Assembly (NCBI RefSeq): GCF_001517625.2
Contig: NZ_LN999827.1
Span: 267,348-331,347 of the forward strand
Length of the DNA stretch: 64,000 bases
From: Clostridium sp. AT4
GTDB taxonomy: Bacteria; Bacillota; Clostridia; Lachnospirales; Lachnospiraceae
Direction: 5' to 3'
The position numbers and the translations under genes are program-made. Positions 54,129 to 64,000 of the stretch are shown in pieces. Within the stretch, counting starts at the first letter, position 1. Each line of letters begins with the position of its first letter. The notes beneath the pieces are model-generated. The model worked only from the letters and a program-made list of their open reading frames with translations, did no database searches and was not told the origin of the DNA.

Positions 54129-54171
54129 AATATAACACTTATTATTAGCAATGTCAAGAGGTGAGTGCTAA
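54129..54171 (-). promoter_or_regulatory. hsp20 promoter overlapped by a CIRCE operator
   Basis: The minus-strand promoter is TTGACA (54152-54157), 17 bp, TATATT (54129-54134). The CIRCE element spans 54145-54171: GAGTGCTAA (54163-54171) is a perfect half-site, and TTAGCAATG (54145-54153) is the other half with three changes, with the standard 9-base spacer. HrcA binding would cover the -35 box. Confidence 0.82.
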
Positions 54172-54337: not shown

Positions 54338-55561
54338 TTATACCACAGCAGGTACGGTTTCTGGCAGGTTCATTTTAGACATCTCGTTCTCCACATGAGA
54401 CTTTTCTGCAATATGATTGTAGACATTCATTGTAATCTGTGCATCCGAATGGCCCATGACATACTGCATAACTTTAGGATTGACATTGTTCTCACCCAGT
54501 CTGGTACATCCCGTATGACGAAGGGTATGCGATGAAATAGGCGGCATCAGCTCCGGCTCTCGCTTCTCTTCTTCTGCCAGTTTGCTTTCTTTCTTATTAT
54601 AGGCATTGACAATGTTTTTCAGAAAGCTGTTCACTCCCGCCGGCATGATCGGACGTCCATGCTTTGTATTGAAGATGAATCCACTGCGTCCACCAATCTC
54701 CACATTACTCTGTAAACCAAGCATTAGGTTCAGTTCTCTCTGCTTACGGAACGCATCATATACCATCTGTGTCATAGGAATATCTCTGATTCCTGCATCC
54801 GTTTTGGTTTCTGAATCATGGAAACAATATCCTTCTTCACCTTCATAATATACAAGCTGTCCACCTACATGGATCTCCCGATTCTTCATATCCACATCTG
54901 ACCAGGTTAATCCAATGGTTTCACTCACTCTCAGGCAAGCCCCAAACATAACCTGCATCATTGGAAGATGAGGCTTATACACATTACTCTGTTCAACAAA
55001 CTTCAGAAGTTTTTCCTGCTGTTCCAGTGTCAGTGCTTCTTTCTCCTTTGCCGGAGCCCCATAATCTCCAAGTGTTCCTGTTACCGGATTCTTGCGGATA
55101 ATCCCATCTTCCACTGCCAGTTCAAAACTAGGATTCAATAAGCCATAAAGACCTTTGATCGTACTGTGTGCCAGTCCTTCATCTGACAATGCGGAAAAGA
55201 ACGTCCTTACGTGAGATGTCTTAAAATCTACAACACGAATGTTTCCCAAAGTATTTCGTATCCGGTAGTCCCACATACGGATATAATTCTTTTTCGTTCT
55301 TTCCTTGATATTCTTTGTTGCCATGTATCGCTCAAACAACGTATTTACAGTCAGCTTCTTGACTGATGCGTCTGTAATAAGCAGATCATCCATATCCTTA
55401 TTGATCTTCTTTTCCATTTCTCGCAGACTCGCCAGATCAGCTGCATAAATCGAATTACGCTTTCCGGTAATTTCATCCTTGTAGCGATACTCATAACGTC
55501 CATCCGGACGCTGGTATTCACCTGTTTTTAAATTTCTTCCTTTATTATCTTTTCTTGCCAT
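54338..55561 (-). CDS. int: Tyrosine recombinase, Tn916-type integrase
   Basis: 407 residues from the ATG at 55561 (AAAGGAATG upstream). An N-terminal AP2-like arm-binding domain (ARKDNKGRNLKTGEYQRPDGRYEYRYKDEITGKRNSIYAADLASLREMEKKI), a SAM-like core-binding domain, and a catalytic domain with Arg in LRVSETIGLTW, His-x-x-Arg in SHTLRHTGCTRLG, His in MGHSDAQIT and the nucleophile Tyr in MNVYNH. It integrates and, with Xis, excises a mobile element. Its position beside the host hsp20 gene, reading leftward, suggests the element's left end is at about 54.2-54.3 kb and the element extends right. Confidence 0.93.
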   Translation of the reverse strand: MARKDNKGRNLKTGEYQRPDGRYEYRYKDEITGKRNSIYAADLASLREMEKKINKDMDDLLITDASVKKLTVNTLFERYMATKNIKERTKKNYIRMWDYRIRNTLGNIRVVDFKTSHVRTFFSALSDEGLAHSTIKGLYGLLNPSFELAVEDGIIRKNPVTGTLGDYGAPAKEKEALTLEQQEKLLKFVEQSNVYKPHLPMMQVMFGACLRVSETIGLTWSDVDMKNREIHVGGQLVYYEGEEGYCFHDSETKTDAGIRDIPMTQMVYDAFRKQRELNLMLGLQSNVEIGGRSGFIFNTKHGRPIMPAGVNSFLKNIVNAYNKKESKLAEEEKREPELMPPISSHTLRHTGCTRLGENNVNPKVMQYVMGHSDAQITMNVYNHIAEKSHVENEMSKMNLPETVPAVV

Positions 55562-55785
55562 ATCAATCATTCCTTTCACTTCATTTTTCGTTATTCGGAA
55601 TGATTTTTGTCCTGTCGGTATCAGTCATTTACTGTCTGATATCTGCTCACAGATTAACATAATATTTTATGATTTCCAAGGGTGGATTCCTGCAAAATGC
55701 TAATTTTTATTTGCCTTTTTTACAGGAATACTTTTCACTTTTCATTCCGAAGGAAAGTTGTTGTATTTTATCTTCTTATCTTTCA

Positions 55786-55980
55786 TTACACTGCCATTGC
55801 ATCAAGATATTTTTTTATCTTATCCACGTTATAGAGAACACGTCTTCCAACAATCACTCTTGCTTCTGCATAATCTGCAATTTTCTTTGCAGTTACTTCT
55901 CCGCAGGATAACATTGCCATTAATCCTTCAATATCTACCGCCAGACGATTCTCAATCTTATACTCTGTTGTTTTTCTCAT
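55786..55980 (-). CDS. xis: Excisionase (Tn916 Xis-like)
   Basis: 64 residues from the ATG at 55980, ten bases after GGAGG. A basic start (MRKTTEYKIENRLAVDIEGL) leads into a winged-helix MerR-like DNA-binding fold (MAMLSCGEVTAKKIADYAEARVIVGRRVLYNVDKIKKYLDAM), typical of the small proteins next to Tn916-family integrases. It lies upstream of int on the same strand and should bias the recombinase toward excision. Confidence 0.85.
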   Translation of the reverse strand: MRKTTEYKIENRLAVDIEGLMAMLSCGEVTAKKIADYAEARVIVGRRVLYNVDKIKKYLDAMAV

Positions 55981-56480
55981 GATGCACATACCTCCTTTCC
56001 TCCGTATTCTTCTGCATCACCTCCCAGACAGCGGTTATGCCCGTTGTCAGTACACTCTACTTTTTGTTTAGACTTCTTACAATGATTTTCCATTCCGTTC
56101 GGCGTGTTGGCTTCCATTTGTACACCTGCTGTCAATGTTACAATCAACCTCTATCAGAATTATTCTGAATGTCGGCAGCTTCTTTCCAAACATACCGACC
56201 GTTTCCGGAGTATCTTCAACGCTCCCCATAAAAAGCTATGGATCTTGGCATCTGTGTTAGCTACATTTTCTATAAAGGAAAATATGGTGTACAGCTCATT
56301 CAATTTTCAAGGTACAAGAAGGATTTTAAATATCCCCTCATCTATACAGCCCTGTGAGGATAAAATGTTATTCGATTTTTGGAATTTTAAAAAATCCTTT
56401 CACTAATAAAGTCCGACAGAAGCGATTTACCAACCTGCTTTTGCGATAATTCACAAAATATTTACATTTCAGCTTTCACT
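55981..56480. other. Gene-poor leader between the leftward promoter and xis
   Basis: About 500 bases with no convincing gene. A 100-codon frame on the plus strand (56104-56406) lacks a ribosome site and family resemblance. The stretch would be the long untranslated leader of the leftward xis-int transcript from the promoter at 56512-56540; the only other thing visible is an AT-rich composition. Confidence 0.4.
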
Positions 56481-56601
56481 TTCGCTTTAATGCGAACTTT
56501 ATTGTTCTGTCATTATAATTCGCTTTAATGTTAATGTCAAGTATTTCATTCGCTTAGTTGCGAATGTTTCTGTTTACATTCTGAGATTTTGATAGTAAAA
56601 T
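56481..56601. promoter_or_regulatory. Divergent promoters with three TTCGC-type operators
   Basis: Leftward promoter: TTGACA (56535-56540), 17 bp, TATAAT (56512-56517). Rightward promoter: TTTACA (56573-56578), 17 bp, TAAAAT (56596-56601), leading to the XRE gene. Three boxes, TTCGCTTTAATGCGAA (56481), TTCGCTTTAATGTTAA (56519, half-site) and TTCGCTTAGTTGCGAA (56549), share the pattern TTCGC-N6-GCGAA. The second lies in the leftward promoter's spacer and the third just upstream of the rightward -35, a phage-like switch layout. Confidence 0.7.
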
Positions 56602-56633
56602 GGAATTATCAAATAGAAAGCAGGAAATCTGAT

Positions 56634-57194
56634 ATGACAATTGGTGATAAAATAAAAAAAATCCGGACATTCCGGAATATGACACAGGCAGAACTCGGTG
56701 CAGCTCTTGGCTGGGGCGATAAAGGTGCAAACCGCCTTGCCCAATATGAAACTAATTACCGGGTTCCCCGTAAAGATCTGGTTACTGAAATGGCTAAGAT
56801 TTTGGATGTGAATCCACTGACACTGCATGAGCCAACTACGATGAATGCTTCTGAACTGATGGAAATCCTGTTCTGGATTGACGAATTTAATCCTGGCATG
56901 ATTAATCTCTTTCAATTAGAGACTTATCCAAGCGAAAAATCAAATTCCAGTGGCGATACCGCTATCCGCTACCATGATTCTGATAGTTGGCCTGCTCATC
57001 CGCCTATTGGTATGTGGTTTAATTATGGGATTCTCAATGATTTTCTAAAAGAATGGACACTTAGAAAAGAAGAACTGACATCTGGTGCGATTACCAGAGA
57101 TGAATATTTTGAATGGAAAATCAACTGGCCACAGACCTGTGATGATTGTGGTAAACGGGAACCGTCGAAACAGTGGCTGAAATCAAGCGAGTAG
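56634..57194 (+). CDS. XRE-type (Cro/CI) repressor of the mobile element
   Basis: 186 residues from the ATG after CAGGAAATCTGAT. The N-terminal HTH is TIGDKIKKIRTFRNMTQAELGAALGWGDKGANRLAQYETNYRVPRKDLVTEMAKILDV. The C-terminal ~110 residues are Trp-rich (SWPAHPPIGMWFNYG, FEWKINWPQTCDDCGKREP) and include a Cys pair, C-D-D-C; this part looks like regulators found beside Tn916-type xis/int in Clostridia. It is transcribed away from xis-int and probably represses the leftward promoter through the TTCGC boxes. Confidence 0.85.
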   Translation: MTIGDKIKKIRTFRNMTQAELGAALGWGDKGANRLAQYETNYRVPRKDLVTEMAKILDVNPLTLHEPTTMNASELMEILFWIDEFNPGMINLFQLETYPSEKSNSSGDTAIRYHDSDSWPAHPPIGMWFNYGILNDFLKEWTLRKEELTSGAITRDEYFEWKINWPQTCDDCGKREPSKQWLKSSE

Positions 57195-57199
57195 AGCTT

Positions 57200-57363
57200 A
57201 GTGAAACTTAGCAAAACTTAAATTTATTATATTTTTTTCTTTTTACTCAAGGAAAAGGCACTGAAAAACCGATAATCCATTGTTTTCAGTGCCTTTTTTG
57301 CATATTTTTCTATTAAGATTCTCTCACATGCTTATATAAGTGAAACTTAGCGAAACTTAAATT
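57200..57363. repeat. 25-bp direct repeats flanking a terminator
   Basis: AGTGAAACTTAGC(A/G)AAACTTAAATT occurs at 57200-57224 and 57339-57363 with one mismatch. The second copy ends at the stop codon of the AlbA-type gene. Each copy contains two near-repeats of AAACTTA. This could be a duplication from insertion, or recombinase or replication sites. Confidence 0.75.
57253..57299. terminator. Bidirectional terminator between the XRE and AlbA-type genes
   Basis: AAAAGGCACTGAAAA (57253-57267) pairs with TTTTCAGTGCCTTTT, with A and T runs outside, between convergent genes. Confidence 0.85.
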
Positions 57364-58828
57364 ATGCCCAATATGGAATGTACTTTTTATATCTTGGTGC
57401 TGTATCCGGGTCCATTACTTTAATATATCCACCTTCGACAGCACTGGTAAGAAGTCTTGATGCCTTGGCCTTCTCTTTTTCTCCCAGACCAAATATTTTT
57501 CGAATATCTGAATTAGAAATACCTTCAAAATTGACATATGCTAGACACGCCTGCATATAGCAAGTCCGCATCCGATCTTCTTTGGTAGTTAATTCAAATG
57601 GTACTTTTGCAAACAATATTGCTTTTGTGAATTGGTTATTCTGATTTTCAATTCTCGGAGCAAGCAGCTCATTTTTACCGGTTGCTTCAACAATCTTATC
57701 ATAACCACTGCCACGCTCCTCACAAATACCACATTTGTGCATAAATCCGGCAATGTTTTCATTTCTGGATACTGGCACCGAATCTACAATTCTTTCGATT
57801 GCCACCAATGGTGCTCCGGCATTTGAAAACTCGATTCGATTTTTAAACACCTCCACCATTGGATTCGTTCCCCTTTGCTGAAGATCCTGATGTATCATAG
57901 CATTTGCCAGCAACTCACGGATAGCGATTTCTGGAAAACTGACAACAGATTTTCTCGTAGTTTCCACAATGACTTCTTCTTGCGGAATAATTGTCATAAT
58001 ATACTGCACGATTTCTTCATGTGAAAATGCATAACCTGCACAAAATTCCTTTTCTCTTATAGCATCCAATCTGGAATTTTCCTTGTACCAAATAACTCGA
58101 ACCGATCTCCTATGCAAAGATTCGAATTTTTTCAAATCTTTTGCAATCATCAAAGCACCCATATTCGTGATATCCCATGTCCCGGCATCATTTTTCATAA
58201 TAAATTTTTCATGTTGCAGGTCTTCTAGTACCTTATCTCGATTTCTCGGAATCGGCATTTCAAGTTTGTCATAATATTTAGAATAATCCAGTAATGACAC
58301 CATTTCATCCTCATTCAGATTTCCCATCGCAATTCGCAATTCATATGGTGTGGAATCAAATGTTCTCCACAATTCTCTTTCTTTATCCGGATACTCTTTT
58401 AAGTTCTTTTTATTTGTTCCAATTCTTATATACTCCCCACCAGCGAACTGTACCGGCTGTTTTTCTGCACAAGGAATCTCCATCAGCACAACCATTCCTT
58501 CATCCATCGGAACCTCAAAAAATCGGAAATTAATTCTTGGTGAAAGCATCCTGGAAAGCCATGCTTCCAATTCTTCATTTCCCTTTTTCATTTTGCGATA
58601 CTGAAATTCAGTGCCTACAATTTTGTGCGTTGCATCATCCATACCCCAAACAAGATATGCTTTTGGTCGTTCGCATAATGCTGCTGAATTGCTCAAAGCA
58701 GAAATATATTCACCAATCATCTGTGGCTGTTTATTATTACATTTAAATTCTACCCACTCAGTCTCATCCGGAAGTTTTGCAAGTTCCCGGACAAGGCTTT
58801 GCAGATATTCTATTGATCGTATTGCCAT
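57362..58828 (-). CDS. AlbA_2 (Schlafen-type) DNA-binding / GHKL-like ATPase protein
   Basis: 488 residues from the ATG at 58828 (GAGGGTGATTTT upstream). The N-terminal AlbA_2 domain is ETEWVEFKCNNKQPQMIGEYISALSNSAALCERPKAYLVWGMDDATHKIVGT, with the E-x-K pair of Schlafen-like nucleases. The middle region is RecG-like with a HATPase_c_4 segment (FPEIAIRELLANAMIHQDLQQRGTNPMVEVFKNRIEFSNAGAP...GICEERGSGYDKIVEA), and the C-terminal winged helix is FEGISNSDIRKIFGLGEKEKAKASRLLTSAVEGGYIKV. Such proteins act as regulators or occur in defence islands. It follows qatD by 29 bases on the same strand and may be co-transcribed with the Qat genes. Confidence 0.82.
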   Translation of the reverse strand: MAIRSIEYLQSLVRELAKLPDETEWVEFKCNNKQPQMIGEYISALSNSAALCERPKAYLVWGMDDATHKIVGTEFQYRKMKKGNEELEAWLSRMLSPRINFRFFEVPMDEGMVVLMEIPCAEKQPVQFAGGEYIRIGTNKKNLKEYPDKERELWRTFDSTPYELRIAMGNLNEDEMVSLLDYSKYYDKLEMPIPRNRDKVLEDLQHEKFIMKNDAGTWDITNMGALMIAKDLKKFESLHRRSVRVIWYKENSRLDAIREKEFCAGYAFSHEEIVQYIMTIIPQEEVIVETTRKSVVSFPEIAIRELLANAMIHQDLQQRGTNPMVEVFKNRIEFSNAGAPLVAIERIVDSVPVSRNENIAGFMHKCGICEERGSGYDKIVEATGKNELLAPRIENQNNQFTKAILFAKVPFELTTKEDRMRTCYMQACLAYVNFEGISNSDIRKIFGLGEKEKAKASRLLTSAVEGGYIKVMDPDTAPRYKKYIPYWA

Positions 58829-58857: not shown

Positions 58858-59586
58858 CTATTTTGAAAGAATATCTCGAAAATTAGCATAAACCATCTTA
58901 ATAATGTCTGGTTCATTATAATATCGTGCAACTAACTCGTATATTTTTATTAAGTTGTTAAATGTGTACTTTTTTCCATCAATTTTTGTAAACGGTCCAT
59001 CACTTTCAATTAATACTCTTGTTTTTGGTATCAAATACAATTTTTCTTTATTCTTTTCATTTGTTACCATGTTAGAATTAAGTGAAAAATAACATCCTAT
59101 ATCCACTAATTGTTGCAATTGCTCTCCGTTTCCATTAAACCAATGAATAATGCACCTACGAGGACGATATTTTTTCAAAATAGATATTGCTTCTTCCTCC
59201 GCTCTTCTAAGATGCACAGACATTAATTTATCCTTTTCTGCACACACTCTTACAATTTGCTCAAAATACATACATTGTTTATTACGCGAAATATAACTTT
59301 GTCTTGAAAAATCAAGTCCTATTTCTCCTACATAATTAGTTGTATTTACCAATTGCATAAAATCATAAAAATCCGCATCTTTCAGTGATACATCCTGTGG
59401 ATGGAATCCAAGTGCAAATTTCAAATATTTTGTTTCCGGATATATGCGTTTACAGGATATATATACTCCAGGCGAATTCGTCATGCACAATGTATATTGT
59501 TTTCTTTCATTTATTCCGTCATATATTTTCTGATGCTCTTTGTAATAATCCAGATGAAAGTGTGTATCAATAAGGTGTTGAATCAT
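58858..59586 (-). CDS. qatD: QatD: TatD-like metal-dependent nuclease of the Qat system
   Basis: 242 residues. TatD/amidohydrolase barrel: the first metal pair in LIDTHFHLDYY, FALGFHPQDV (His), VGEIGLDFSRQSY (Glu bridging ligand), MSVHLRRAEEEAISIL (His), CIIHWFNGNGEQL (His) and VLIESDGPFT (Asp). TatD family DNases are Mg2+-dependent exonucleases; in Qat systems this is the presumed nuclease effector, and catalytic residues appear intact. Its start overlaps the end of qatC by four bases. AT-rich, unlike the host genes to the left. Confidence 0.88.
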   Translation of the reverse strand: MIQHLIDTHFHLDYYKEHQKIYDGINERKQYTLCMTNSPGVYISCKRIYPETKYLKFALGFHPQDVSLKDADFYDFMQLVNTTNYVGEIGLDFSRQSYISRNKQCMYFEQIVRVCAEKDKLMSVHLRRAEEEAISILKKYRPRRCIIHWFNGNGEQLQQLVDIGCYFSLNSNMVTNEKNKEKLYLIPKTRVLIESDGPFTKIDGKKYTFNNLIKIYELVARYYNEPDIIKMVYANFRDILSK

Positions 59587-60953
59587 AATCCCAGATACTC
59601 CTTCATTCTCTGATCTGCGGAAAAAAGTTGTACTAAATCCTCTATACTTTTCTTGTATAATGATAAAAATTTTTCAACTTCCTCTTCTGTTAATTCTCCT
59701 ACGCATCTAATATATCTTTTTAATTCTTTATCCGAAGAATGTTTACAACGATAGATACTTCCAAGCACCGCTCTTAAATCTGCACTCTTCTCACTTTCTT
59801 CATATTCTATCAAAAAATCATAAGCTTCTCCCTGATAAGAATATTTTTTTATCTCATCTATGTCCAAAAGTGAACTTTTGCGTATCAAACACGGATAACA
59901 GTATCCACAGTTTACAGGATATTCTTTAGAGCCCTTTTTATTATATCTTGCTAAACAAGGATGTGAGCATGAAATTGTATCTGCATAACAGCTTTTAAAT
60001 GCATCTGTATCTTTAACTTGTCCTACAATCTCTCTCTTTGTATTGTACGCGAAAAAATTGGTAATAGTATTCTTTATTCCTACCTTTTCTAAGATATCAT
60101 TAAATTGTCTTAAAAAGTACGGATGAGTAGTTCTTGTGCTGCAAGTCCCTTTTCTTCCTCCCGTTAATGGAATATTGAGTCCGATAAATCCATTTTCTGG
60201 AATATAAACCGGTACATTTTCTCCCAAAATACCAGCCACACTAAGTGCTGCACATAAAAACAGTAATGATCTGCCACGAGAGGTATTTTCACTCCCCTTT
60301 AATATTCCTTCTTTTTCACTTATAGGAGCTCTGGAATTTGCTGTAAAACTAATAAATTTAACGAATTGTTCTGGATAAAGATCCTGAAAAGTCCTGGCAA
60401 ATAAATTCTGTCTTTTTGCAAGTTTAGGATATTCATTGTGTCCGATTAGACAAGGAGACTCCCCTTGTTCTAACAGTTTAATCGCACCACAAAAAGAATC
60501 CAATCCTCCAGAAAACAAGCATACACAATTACAGTTTTGAACATTCAAATGAATTCTATTTGCATGTTCCCTATAACTATATATTATCTCACTTTTTCTA
60601 AATGTAATATGCCAATGATCCCCTGTCAAAAATCCCAGTATGTTTTCCCATTGCAATTCCGTACGCTTCCATTTCTCATATTCTAATACTGGAATAGATA
60701 CGCTTATCTCTCTAGTCCAACAGTCTTTAAATTTTCTTCTGGACACTCTTTTATCCAAAGCAAAAATACTCAAACCTATTATGAACAAATCTTCGTATAT
60801 TGTAGAAATCTGCAGTTGATCCATTCGGTACCAGCTATCCGTTATGTTGGTAAAAATCGTACTATATTTTTTTCGGTTAATTGAAAAGACATATGCATCT
60901 TTCCATTCAGCATCTGGTTTTTTCTCTTGTTCTTTATCAATCCAAAACTGCAT
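59583..60953 (-). CDS. qatC: QatC: QueC-like enzyme of the Qat system
   Basis: 456 residues, about twice the size of true QueC. An N-terminal ~135 residues of unknown fold precede the PP-loop ATPase motif SGGLDS (148-153) and the QueC-like region EQGESPCLIGHNEYPKLAKRQNLF. A Cys cluster near 330-355 (SCSHPCLARY...NCGYCYPCLIRKSS) corresponds to the QueC Zn site. QueC makes preQ0; in Qat the homologue may modify a protein or DNA rather than tRNA precursors. The overlaps with qatD and the 2-base gap to qatB indicate one transcript. Confidence 0.9.
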   Translation of the reverse strand: MQFWIDKEQEKKPDAEWKDAYVFSINRKKYSTIFTNITDSWYRMDQLQISTIYEDLFIIGLSIFALDKRVSRRKFKDCWTREISVSIPVLEYEKWKRTELQWENILGFLTGDHWHITFRKSEIIYSYREHANRIHLNVQNCNCVCLFSGGLDSFCGAIKLLEQGESPCLIGHNEYPKLAKRQNLFARTFQDLYPEQFVKFISFTANSRAPISEKEGILKGSENTSRGRSLLFLCAALSVAGILGENVPVYIPENGFIGLNIPLTGGRKGTCSTRTTHPYFLRQFNDILEKVGIKNTITNFFAYNTKREIVGQVKDTDAFKSCYADTISCSHPCLARYNKKGSKEYPVNCGYCYPCLIRKSSLLDIDEIKKYSYQGEAYDFLIEYEESEKSADLRAVLGSIYRCKHSSDKELKRYIRCVGELTEEEVEKFLSLYKKSIEDLVQLFSADQRMKEYLGL

Positions 60954-60955
60954 CC

Positions 60956-61639
60956 TTAATCCTCCCCATAATACTTTTCAAATACAGATAAGGCATCGCT
61001 TAATGCATCCTCCACAATTTGTGATGTTCCCATGTTAGAAAAATCAACCGATTTCAAATTATCCAAGTTCAAATCACCGTCAATACTGTTTTCTATATAT
61101 TCATGCATGTCATTTAAAATTGCAGATGTTTGTGCAGGTGTTTTCCCTTTGGATATTTTTTCTTCATATCGAAAATCAAAGTTTTCTTTTATGTATTCTT
61201 TCAACATTTCCTTCAGTAATATATCAACTGAAACATTCCCTATATCCGCAATATCTTCTATTTCTAAATTCTCCATAGCCTGTGACAATGCATCCGCTGC
61301 CATATTATCTTCTACCGATGCACCATAATTTGTAAATTCATGAAGTAATTCTGTCCAAACAACTTCTGACGATTTTCCAATAAGATCTTCACGATGATAC
61401 TCACGTAATGCATTATCTATGCCTCCAGAGGCAACCTTTTGTGCAAAACCTAAGACTCCTGCTGCCGCCGATTGAAAACTACCACCTGTCGACATATCTT
61501 TTTTCATTGCGGTTGCATATTTACTGGCCGCTTTTGCTTTAGAATCAAAGTCTCTATTATTTATAAAGGCCGTCACTGCTCTTTTTGCGGTTGACCAATG
61601 CGGTGTTGTTGGTGCTATATATCCTTTTGATGTACCCAT
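60956..61639 (-). CDS. qatB: QatB: conserved Qat system protein of unknown fold
   Basis: 227 residues, mostly helical, acidic at the C-terminus. The start MGTSKGYIAPTTPHWSTAKRAV is a family hallmark seen in QatB proteins, followed by a Gly/Ala-rich segment (GGSFQSAAAGVLGFAQKVASGGIDNAL). There are no catalytic motifs. Its Gly-rich tail, ending DFSNMGTSQIVEDALSDALSVFEKYYGED, resembles a peptide that the QueC-like partner could act on, but that is conjecture. The ATG lies 1 base after the qatA stop. Confidence 0.87.
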   Translation of the reverse strand: MGTSKGYIAPTTPHWSTAKRAVTAFINNRDFDSKAKAASKYATAMKKDMSTGGSFQSAAAGVLGFAQKVASGGIDNALREYHREDLIGKSSEVVWTELLHEFTNYGASVEDNMAADALSQAMENLEIEDIADIGNVSVDILLKEMLKEYIKENFDFRYEEKISKGKTPAQTSAILNDMHEYIENSIDGDLNLDNLKSVDFSNMGTSQIVEDALSDALSVFEKYYGED

Positions 61640-61640
61640 A

Positions 61641-63488
61641 TTAGCTTTCCCTCTGCTCTTTTATTTCTGTAATCTGCTCGTCTGTTAACGTTCCTCTTTT
61701 TACCATGTTTTCTAATACAGTATTCATATTTTCCATATCACTATTATACATTGTTCTTAATGCAGCCATATCACCTGCTTTAATAGGAGCTGTTGATTTC
61801 CCAATTGCATCCACTATTTTTCCTTTATATGCATCAAAATTCAAAAACAAATCTCTTACAACAAAAAATTTCATTTCACCTTTTTCGATTTTAGATGCAA
61901 CAACCTTAAATGTATCCGCAATTTCTTCTGCACTCAATTTTTTCATATCTTTTATAATAGCCACCATTTGACCAGATTTAGCTCGTCCAATTCTTTCTAA
62001 AATTTCTTTCGTATTTTTACTGAATCCAGACTCGTCAATACTAAATCTTTTCAAATTTTCTCTTGTCAAATAAAAATATTTTTCCAATCGATATTTTTCT
62101 AATTCAACAGGTTTGCATTCTAGCCACTTTTTTATTTGTGCTGTGTTCCACGGATTCTGAGCATCAACCTTTCCTTCCTTCACTTTTGTTCGAATTTCCT
62201 TAAATTCTTTATTTTCAGTATCAAATTCTTTATTCCATTCATTCAATTGTATAAACAAGTCATTATCCAGCTTTTGCAGCACTAATAATTTAGCTAAAAT
62301 GGAAATATCAATTTCATCACCATAATAAATTTTTGCCAACTGGCGTTTGGTAATAAATGTGTTCAAAAAACGTTTTGCCTGGCGTGGATTGCCTTTCAAT
62401 GTAGAAGCAACAATTTCCCTTATTTCATCAATAATTTTCGCCGTTTCTTTAAAAGCTGTTTTTCCCCCATCCTGCCAATTCAACCCTAACTCATCAATCA
62501 ACTTATTAATTTCTTCTAATGTAATTACATCCCCAGAAATTGTTCTTTTTTCTTCAAATATCTTATCTATTAGATGCTTAAAACTCTCTTGTTCCAAATA
62601 GCTTTGTGTGACCAGTAATAATAGATAATTTTGTATATCCTTTGCCGATAACTCCGGAATATATATTGGCAGTTGAATAATTTTTTCAATGTATTCTTTG
62701 TCCAGTTCTACATCAAATCCATTCATTGGTGGATACTTTTCACGGATAGAGTACTTTATAACATTTTCATCTGCAGCAATAATAAATGTTGTCCTGTCAA
62801 CAGACAAGAATAGTTTAATTACTTCCAATATTTCAATTATTCGTTCTGGACGACATCTGTCTAAATCATCTATCATTACAACTACATTTTTAATATCGTC
62901 ACTTTTCAATGCATCAGAAAATTCCTCTCTAAATTTTCTGATATTGTTTATCGTGCTTTCATCATTTGATACATCTTCCTCTTTCCAATATTCATCTTTT
63001 AATGATTGTATGGAATTTGCTGCATTTTTGACTGTATTTCCAATTTCTTCAGCACTTCCCGTTACATTTAACAACATAGGCAATGGATTTCCTGTGGCCA
63101 CGCTTGCAACTACAGGTGCAAGCGTGGATATTGCTTTTGTTCCTAACTTAAACCAGTCAACTCTTTTTATTAATTTTCCCAATTTCTTTTTAGTTTCTTC
63201 TACAGGAACTTCTTCTTTAAGTTCCTGTAATAAAGCCTCCATAATTGCGGTTTTAGCATCGTCATATGATTCAAACATCCATGCATTAATAGTTACACAA
63301 ATAATTCCGTCCTGACTCTTAAGTTTTTCACCTATTAACTTCAATAAGGTTGATTTTCCTGCTCCCCATAATCCAAACACACCGACTGTCAATGGATTAT
63401 ATTGTTCATTTTTTGCAATATCGGCAATTATTCTTGCATACGGCTCATAAAATAAAATATCAATATCTGACGCATTATCTAGCCACAT
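61641..63488 (-). CDS. qatA: QatA: KAP-family P-loop NTPase of the Qat system
   Basis: 615 residues from the ATG at 63488, preceded by GGGAGGG. KAP NTPase: Walker A GLWGAGKST (39-47), the following ITINAWMFESYDDAKTAIMEALLQEL, a hydrophobic hairpin (FKLGTKAISTLAPVVASVATGNPLPMLLNV) and Walker B VVMIDDLDRCRPERIIEILEVIKLFLS with NAKRFLN-like GNPRQAKRFLNTFITKRQLAKI sensor region. KAP ATPases are tied to membranes and to phage defence. It is first gene of qatABCD and starts 42 bases after the HsdR stop. Confidence 0.9.
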   Translation of the reverse strand: MWLDNASDIDILFYEPYARIIADIAKNEQYNPLTVGVFGLWGAGKSTLLKLIGEKLKSQDGIICVTINAWMFESYDDAKTAIMEALLQELKEEVPVEETKKKLGKLIKRVDWFKLGTKAISTLAPVVASVATGNPLPMLLNVTGSAEEIGNTVKNAANSIQSLKDEYWKEEDVSNDESTINNIRKFREEFSDALKSDDIKNVVVMIDDLDRCRPERIIEILEVIKLFLSVDRTTFIIAADENVIKYSIREKYPPMNGFDVELDKEYIEKIIQLPIYIPELSAKDIQNYLLLLVTQSYLEQESFKHLIDKIFEEKRTISGDVITLEEINKLIDELGLNWQDGGKTAFKETAKIIDEIREIVASTLKGNPRQAKRFLNTFITKRQLAKIYYGDEIDISILAKLLVLQKLDNDLFIQLNEWNKEFDTENKEFKEIRTKVKEGKVDAQNPWNTAQIKKWLECKPVELEKYRLEKYFYLTRENLKRFSIDESGFSKNTKEILERIGRAKSGQMVAIIKDMKKLSAEEIADTFKVVASKIEKGEMKFFVVRDLFLNFDAYKGKIVDAIGKSTAPIKAGDMAALRTMYNSDMENMNTVLENMVKRGTLTDEQITEIKEQRES

Positions 63489-63530: not shown

Positions 63531-64000
63531 TTACTTTCCATATTTAGCTGGTTCTTCCGCCACCATTTGAACCTGCTCATCTCGTTCAACTTTCCGGTAG
63601 TCCACGGTCTTTTTAGAACGCATTTCCCTATAAATCACCCCTGCTAACGCACTCATTACAGCATCGTACTTGCTTTTGTCCTCAAACAGTGATCCATAAC
63701 TGTCCTGGGCCTCCATATAGCTTTCCATTGCTGCATTTCCAAACGCTGATGGAAAAATACTTTCTGTAAATATTCTTGGATCAGAAGTGCGAGCCGAACT
63801 TTCCAGTTTATCATCTGCAATCAATTTATCATGCAAAGCACCCAGCATTACCCGATCACCTTCTGAAAACTGCCCTTTATACTTTTCATTAATCTTGTCC
63901 AATATTTCATCCAATGTGCTTTTCTGTCTGTTTCCCTGTACTCCCTGTTTCTTGGAAGGAACATACTGACCATCAACTTTCTCCAGTGTTATTGCACCTT
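63531..64000 (-). CDS. hsdR: Probable type I restriction enzyme R subunit, C-terminal part (cut by window edge)
   Basis: An open frame from the right window edge to 63531 gives about 155 residues. The segment IFPSAFGNAAMESYMEAQDSYGSLFEDKSKYDAVMSALAGVIYREMRSK resembles the helical C-terminal end of HsdR-type type I restriction subunits, where an acidic/aromatic LFED and a final (I/L)Y.E(M/F) are common. The preceding low-complexity VPSKKQGVQGNRQKSTLDEIL would be a linker. ATPase and nuclease motifs would be outside the window, so the assignment rests only on this tail. It reads leftward into qatA. Confidence 0.6.
   Translation of the reverse strand, partial: GAITLEKVDGQYVPSKKQGVQGNRQKSTLDEILDKINEKYKGQFSEGDRVMLGALHDKLIADDKLESSARTSDPRIFTESIFPSAFGNAAMESYMEAQDSYGSLFEDKSKYDAVMSALAGVIYREMRSKKTVDYRKVERDEQVQMVAEEPAKYGK

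Follow-up and report, generated by a model that had tools for sequence, protein, structure and literature searches.

A diverged, short-tailed QatABCD operon on a candidate mobilizable element of Clostridium sp. AT4, and the question of what QatC would join to QatB

The window examined here, a stretch of 64,000 nucleotides, covers positions 267348-331347 on a contig of 617 kb from the genome of Clostridium sp. AT4 (3.41 Mb, 97.2% complete). Near its right end lie four genes that are confirmed by their family matches as a real, complete QatABCD anti-phage system, correctly called in an earlier note on this DNA. We hold with good confidence that the operon encodes a bona fide and probably functional system, carried on a mobilizable element together with type I restriction-modification (R-M) genes, in which QatC would modify Gly2 of QatB. 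A further proposal is put forward tentatively: the group that QatC joins to QatB would be another acid, universally available or made on infection, and not host-made 7-carboxy-7-deazaguanine (CDG), whose known route runs via QueC, QueD and QueE, and the first ten residues of this short-tailed QatB would be the whole substrate arm, lying near the core, as in a natural minimal QatBC.

The qat operon

The four genes were placed as follows.
qatA: 61641-63488, minus strand, KAP-family P-loop NTPase of 615 residues (PADLOC QatA, 1.2e-94; Pfam KAP_NTPase, 7.5e-53)
qatB: 60956-61639, minus strand, short-tailed QatB of 227 residues (PADLOC QatB, 9.9e-16)
qatC: 59583-60953, minus strand, QueC-like PP-loop enzyme of 456 residues (PADLOC QatC, 1.1e-95; over the NCBIfam cut-off)
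qatD: 58858-59586, minus strand, TatD-family nuclease of 242 residues (PADLOC QatD, 1.1e-56; Pfam TatD_DNase, 7.3e-41)

Adjacent genes are separated by 1 base (qatA-qatB) and 2 bases (qatB-qatC) or overlap by 4 bases (qatC-qatD), and all four frames are open. These coordinates agree with the earlier description of four leftward genes in the order KAP NTPase, QatB, QueC-like, TatD-like with gaps of 1-2 bases or a 4-base overlap. The AT-rich island reported there was also recovered, the GC content being 0.328 for 58858-63488 versus 0.482 for positions 1-53000. The identification as QatABCD, for which placement of QatB and QatC by hidden Markov models had been named beforehand as a check, is borne out by the PADLOC Qat models, which match all four proteins with E-values of 9.9e-16 or better; these family scores rule out a chance match. 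Although the qatA frame stays open as far as 63512, we judge the ATG at 63488 the better start because it is preceded by a ribosome-binding-like site, GGGAGGG.

By its protein scores, the operon is a diverged Qat copy, since three of the four proteins fall under the NCBIfam equivalog cut-offs (QatA, 371 of 600 bits; QatB, 62 of 100; QatD, 209.5 of 230), whereas QatC passes (353 bits against 280). The Pfam QueC model gives QatC 21.2 bits, under its cut-off of 22, and QatC thus does not score as a canonical QueC. The Walker A and Walker B motifs, GLWGAGKS and VVMIDDLDRC, were read in QatA, and QatD keeps the residues of the TatD metal site, HxH, E, H, H and D; the earlier claims of an intact Walker A/B and of a full set of TatD ligands stand. 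No solved structure matching QatA by sequence was found at 1e-3. Among solved structures, the one nearest to QatD is 3gg7_A; its entry names it only an 'uncharacterized metalloprotein', and it may itself be a QatD.

QatC and the proposed reaction

QatC contains SGGLDS (PP-loop), TRTTHP and C-x19-CGxCxxC, and aligns to the solved QatC 9vlk_A with an E-value of 4.8e-59. In an alignment of 15 QatC sequences, from which near-copies and the split gene of genome G1105 were excluded, T273, T275, C329, C349, C352, C355 and SGG-DS are invariant in all 15, in keeping with the SGGLDS and Cys cluster noted earlier. Alignment to solved QatC equates T273/T275 with P. aeruginosa T278/T280, and this Thr/Thr pair occupies the site of the CDG-binding Tyr/Asp. 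The passages of PMC13279940 considered here report that changing the pair to Tyr/Asp in P. aeruginosa QatC abolishes defence, state the reaction catalysed by QatC as an open question, and leave open which group is joined; those of PMC13329287 use the term carboxydeazaguanylation. No paper testing Qat against the CDG pathway was found in a literature search whose coverage leaves out some relevant Qat and type IV CBASS work. Among phage records, 2 of 50,697 match QatC, at 29% identity over 74%; a protein search of genome contigs with QatC gave 2 loci, and an alignment search of viral contigs gave 4.

For other Qat systems, published work describes a QatBC complex, a need for the catalytic residues of QatC and for QatB Gly2, and defence against lambda-vir by QatBC alone, modification of QatB itself being a published proposal. 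The AT4 copy would be expected to work like these systems. QatB and QatC would form a complex in which the PP-loop SGGLDS of QatC uses ATP to activate an acid group, and QatC would then join this acid to the N-terminal Gly2 of QatB, exposed after Met removal. The modified QatB would restrict phage, and QatA, as a DNA-binding NTPase, and QatD, as a TatD nuclease, would broaden the range. It is very likely that QatC acts on QatB Gly2 with ATP, as the published proposal has it.

QatB and its short tail

AT4 QatB begins with MGTSKGYIAP and two further residues, and about 12 residues thus precede helix 1. The long disordered tail bearing P16/W18 is absent; such a tail is usual ('many' QatB have it) but does not define Qat, and the core fold expected of a Qat protein was found. 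QatB was modelled with AlphaFold2 from 6 sequences (best of five models 86.6, the other four 59.8-66.3), and the structure comparison used two QatB entries out of 50 rows. An MGTS start is shared by 20 of 21 listed QatB N-termini, that of G201 being MGSS; start codons in this list were chosen by us, and G1105, the broken G862 copy and L044 stand outside it.

The short-tail clade has seven members, with support of 100/100 on the QatC tree: the AT4 operon, G489, G699, G179, L004, L041 and a Planococcus maritimus plasmid. Compared with the usual QatB, about 50 residues of disordered tail are absent, among them the segment that P. aeruginosa Qat cannot lose without losing defence, and MGTSKGY(I/L)xP leads straight into helix 1. 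Because the tail between the first ten residues and the core is gone, these ten residues would suffice in this clade as the peptide presented to QatC. The short-tailed QatB is a variant that we have not seen described before, and it may lend itself better to solving structures in which the N-terminus is bound in the active site of QatC.

CDG genes in Qat-bearing hosts

Of the genomes searched, 6 of 391 from the class, 8 of 397 from the family and 6 of 398 from the phylum carry a QatC gene; AT4 is counted in each sample, and the total is 18 Qat-bearing genomes. No QueD, no QueE (E 1e-10) and no QueC over the cut-off was found in the AT4 genome, where the sole TIGR00364 match, located elsewhere than qatC, reaches 25.2 of the 150.3 bits required; TGT and the QueT importer are present. 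Across the 18 genomes, QueD is present in 8 (one of them, G408, by a 42.7-bit match in a genome 78% complete), QueE in 6 (E 1e-10, with no match over the curated cut-off) and TGT in all. QueC exceeds its cut-off in 7, exactly those 7 with strong QueD, and this exact agreement shows that the method detects a true dependence where one exists. The QueC search also covered the genomes of L004 (positive) and L005 (negative). Short, weak QueC matches under the cut-off occur nearly everywhere, 19 of 20 genomes having some match, and probably represent other PP-loop enzymes.

Fifteen Qat-bearing genomes, including that of AT4, are well assembled (≥90% complete, ≤5% contaminated). In nine of these, again including AT4, QueC, QueD and QueE were all not found. 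Eight of the nine hold four open Qat frames, several of their QatB proteins being recognised by position and MGTS rather than by similarity to AT4 QatB; the ninth, G1105, has only a QatB-like gene and a split QatC. According to the passages of PMC11130926 considered, gut Bacillota, Lachnospiraceae included, are mostly without QueDECF. A QueD-family match was observed in 111 of the 397 family-sample genomes, and no significant association with Qat was detected there (4/8 versus 107/389, p 0.23), in a comparison of low power in which one of the 4 is weak, or in its well-assembled part (3/7 versus 87/313, p 0.41).

On the QatC tree, host pathway status requires at least five changes and is not clustered. 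For this tree 16 of 21 rows were labelled, G201 and G1105 were left out, and the L004 host was scored by QueC alone; a QatC tree that included G201 carries a long-branch warning for G201, G872 and G408. With untested rows counted as negative, 6 changes are needed against a shuffled mean of 6.0, and 320 of 500 shuffles are as low. Near-identical operons also occur in positive and negative hosts, namely G862/G947 (QatC identical, G862 qatB broken) and G517/G605 (QatC 99.3%).

Selection and relatives

For all four Qat genes, omega is 0.07-0.18 between AT4 and L004 and 0.07-0.13 between AT4 and G489. The only compared pair in which both hosts are pathway-negative, G264/G315, is nearly identical, and selection therefore makes no case for a long stay in a pathway-negative host.

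Several relatives differ in gene content. The hosts G862 (L036) and G947 (L037) belong to different families and share the same Qat element; the frame of qatB is intact in G947 but broken in G862. G201 (L023 8729-11377) has qatB-qatC-qatD, with a very short QatB starting MGSST and a QatC under the family cut-off; qatA was not found within the 20 kb of this locus. In G1105 (L040 8312-10967), a divergent QatB-like gene and the split QatC-like gene lie among seemingly polysaccharide genes, with no qatA or qatD found beside them; this may be a degenerate two-gene version of QatBC. On the Planococcus maritimus plasmid (L049 5286-11086), after the short-tailed Qat genes come a recombinase, a nucleotidyltransferase and an S-4TM effector, perhaps a second defence system.

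The putative mobile element and neighbouring genes

The following genes flank the operon in the window.
hsdR 3' end: 63531-64000, minus strand, gene extending beyond the window
SLFN_AlbA_2/HATPase_c_4 protein: 57362-58828, minus strand, Schlafen-like by Pfam, 29 bases after qatD
Helix-turn-helix regulator of the element: 56589-57194, plus strand (Pfam HTH_3, 5.4e-07)
Excisionase-like small protein: 55786-55989, minus strand (DUF6462, below cut-off)
Tn916-type tyrosine integrase: 54338-55579, minus strand (Pfam Phage_integrase, 5.3e-29; Integrase_DNA, 1.4e-19)

The hsdR stop lies 42 bases from the qatA ATG. hsdR matches Pfam HSDR_N (7e-09) and T1R_D3-like (2.4e-11) and, under the cut-off, NCBIfam hsdR (1.5e-52); the 155 residues inside the window alone match nothing in PADLOC, Pfam or NCBIfam. 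Beyond the right edge follow the rest of hsdR, hsdS, hsdM, a second N6-methylase gene, a relaxase, a MobC/NikA-like protein and an actin-like protein. The excisionase-like role of the small protein is suggested by its position adjoining the integrase. Because relaxase and MobC-like genes lie to the right and integrase, excisionase-like and regulator genes to the left, Qat and the type I R-M genes look like the cargo of an integrative mobilizable element. Two 13-base direct-repeat matches were found as candidate attachment sites, against about 0.2 expected by our own estimate. One of these repeats lies at 54162, behind the integrase, and at L002 13486, at the 3' end of a chromosomal gene, and could weakly suggest the ends, themselves uncertain, of an element some 23 kb long. 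A promoter scan gave 35 sites versus 33.6 expected.

The R-M/Qat part is copied in an Oscillospiraceae metagenome-assembled genome, L004 (94% DNA identity over 9.5 kb), in G489 (86% over 10.7 kb) and, as a short copy, in L005 (86% over 3.2 kb). A type IV CBASS system was considered and set aside, no CD-NTase or TGT-like Cap10 being found among 9 window proteins (PADLOC, Pfam) or 10 flanking ones (Pfam). The AlbA_2 protein has no match in viral contigs, and on an Aliarcobacter plasmid a relative of it sits within a type I R-M operon.

Weighing the alternatives

The group that QatC would join to QatB is, in our view, probably not host-made CDG, which is unlikely as a general QatC substrate because of the pathway distribution and of the Thr/Thr site, whose change to Tyr/Asp abolishes defence. 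The group may instead be another acid, or a deazaguanine that is salvaged or made by phages; the systems may also be idle. If an acid other than host-made CDG is used, Qat operons could for that reason move freely between hosts with and without QueC, QueD and QueE. A somewhat less probable explanation is that Qat does use CDG, which hosts without these genes would obtain by salvage, from neighbours or from 7-deazaguanine-making phages, or that Qat lies idle in them. It is favoured by the QueT importer, present in 7 of 9 pathway-negative versus 2 of 6 positive well-assembled genomes, and by the use of CDG by Cap9, the related type IV CBASS enzyme, as described in part of PMC13279940. Gut bacteria are also thought to exchange queuosine precursors, according to sections of PMC11130926; however, the transporter passages there name preQ0, preQ1, queuine and Q, and 'CDG' is absent from the main text. 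The Thr/Thr pair at the CDG-reading site in every aligned QatC and the scattered host status on the QatC tree likewise speak against CDG.

Several points weigh against our main reading, that this is a functional Qat system in which a group other than host-made CDG would be joined to the short QatB. Deletion of QatB 16-22 abolishes Qat defence in P. aeruginosa (reported in the passages of PMC13279940 considered), and the equivalent segment is absent from AT4 QatB; this conflict is itself useful. The search for QueE is imperfect, since G862, which has both QueD and QueC, gave no match; at least one QueE has thus been missed. In the short-tail clade, four of the five hosts tested are pathway-positive (G489, G699 and G179 by QueD and QueC; G1159 by QueC only) and AT4 is the sole negative one, which also favours the use of CDG; the short tail and the missing pathway are therefore separate points. 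The AT4 copy may be a recent arrival in a host where Qat does not work. The operon has also diverged from the studied systems, its QatC sharing 29-33% identity with the listed copies from proteobacterial plasmids.

That the operon is a decaying remnant is very improbable. The three missed NCBIfam cut-offs and the short QatB would fit decay, but the four frames are open with their motifs kept, omega is low, and the short QatB is common to a seven-member clade reaching a Planococcus plasmid. It is also improbable, if less so, that the AlbA_2/HATPase protein is an extra part of a five-gene Qat system. Its gene begins only 29 bases behind qatD and holds that place in AT4, L004, L005 and L030, and in L029 a distant relative (5.4e-16) lies about 3.8 kb upstream of qatA. 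Yet those four, the only ones with this arrangement among the loci examined, are copies of one element (86-94% DNA identity), and in the sister operon L029 qatD is not directly followed by a gene of this kind. In 4 plasmid records of 94 matched, no Qat genes are annotated beside a relative, the gene table being incomplete, and the omega of the gene, 0.015-0.03, is below that of the Qat genes, a sign of stronger constraint. The protein is probably outside Qat.

Many Qat-bearing genomes lack the known CDG genes, a warning against assaying QatC with CDG alone. The AT4 host sharpens the main open question, which reaction QatC catalyses, and makes the dependence on CDG directly testable.

Comparison with known systems

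The QatBC structures 9y01/9y02 and 9zee/9zef we take to be from P. aeruginosa, and 9vlk/9vll, judging by residue numbering and the paper, probably from E. coli. The AT4 operon resembles QatABCD of these two species in gene order, in its KAP NTPase, in an MGTS QatB with the same core fold, in a QatC with SGGxDS, TRTTHP and zinc Cys residues, and in its TatD nuclease. It differs in the QatB tail, of about 12 residues versus 63 and without the P16/W18 segment, in a host where QueC, QueD and QueE were not found, and in its position behind type I R-M genes on a putative mobilizable element. Unlike AT4, the four other tested short-tail hosts have QueC, and QueD where searched. Like Cap9 of type IV CBASS, QatC would be an ATP-using enzyme of the QueC family that acts on its partner's N-terminal Gly, an action which for Qat is a proposal, whereas the base site, Tyr/Asp in Cap9, is Thr/Thr in QatC.

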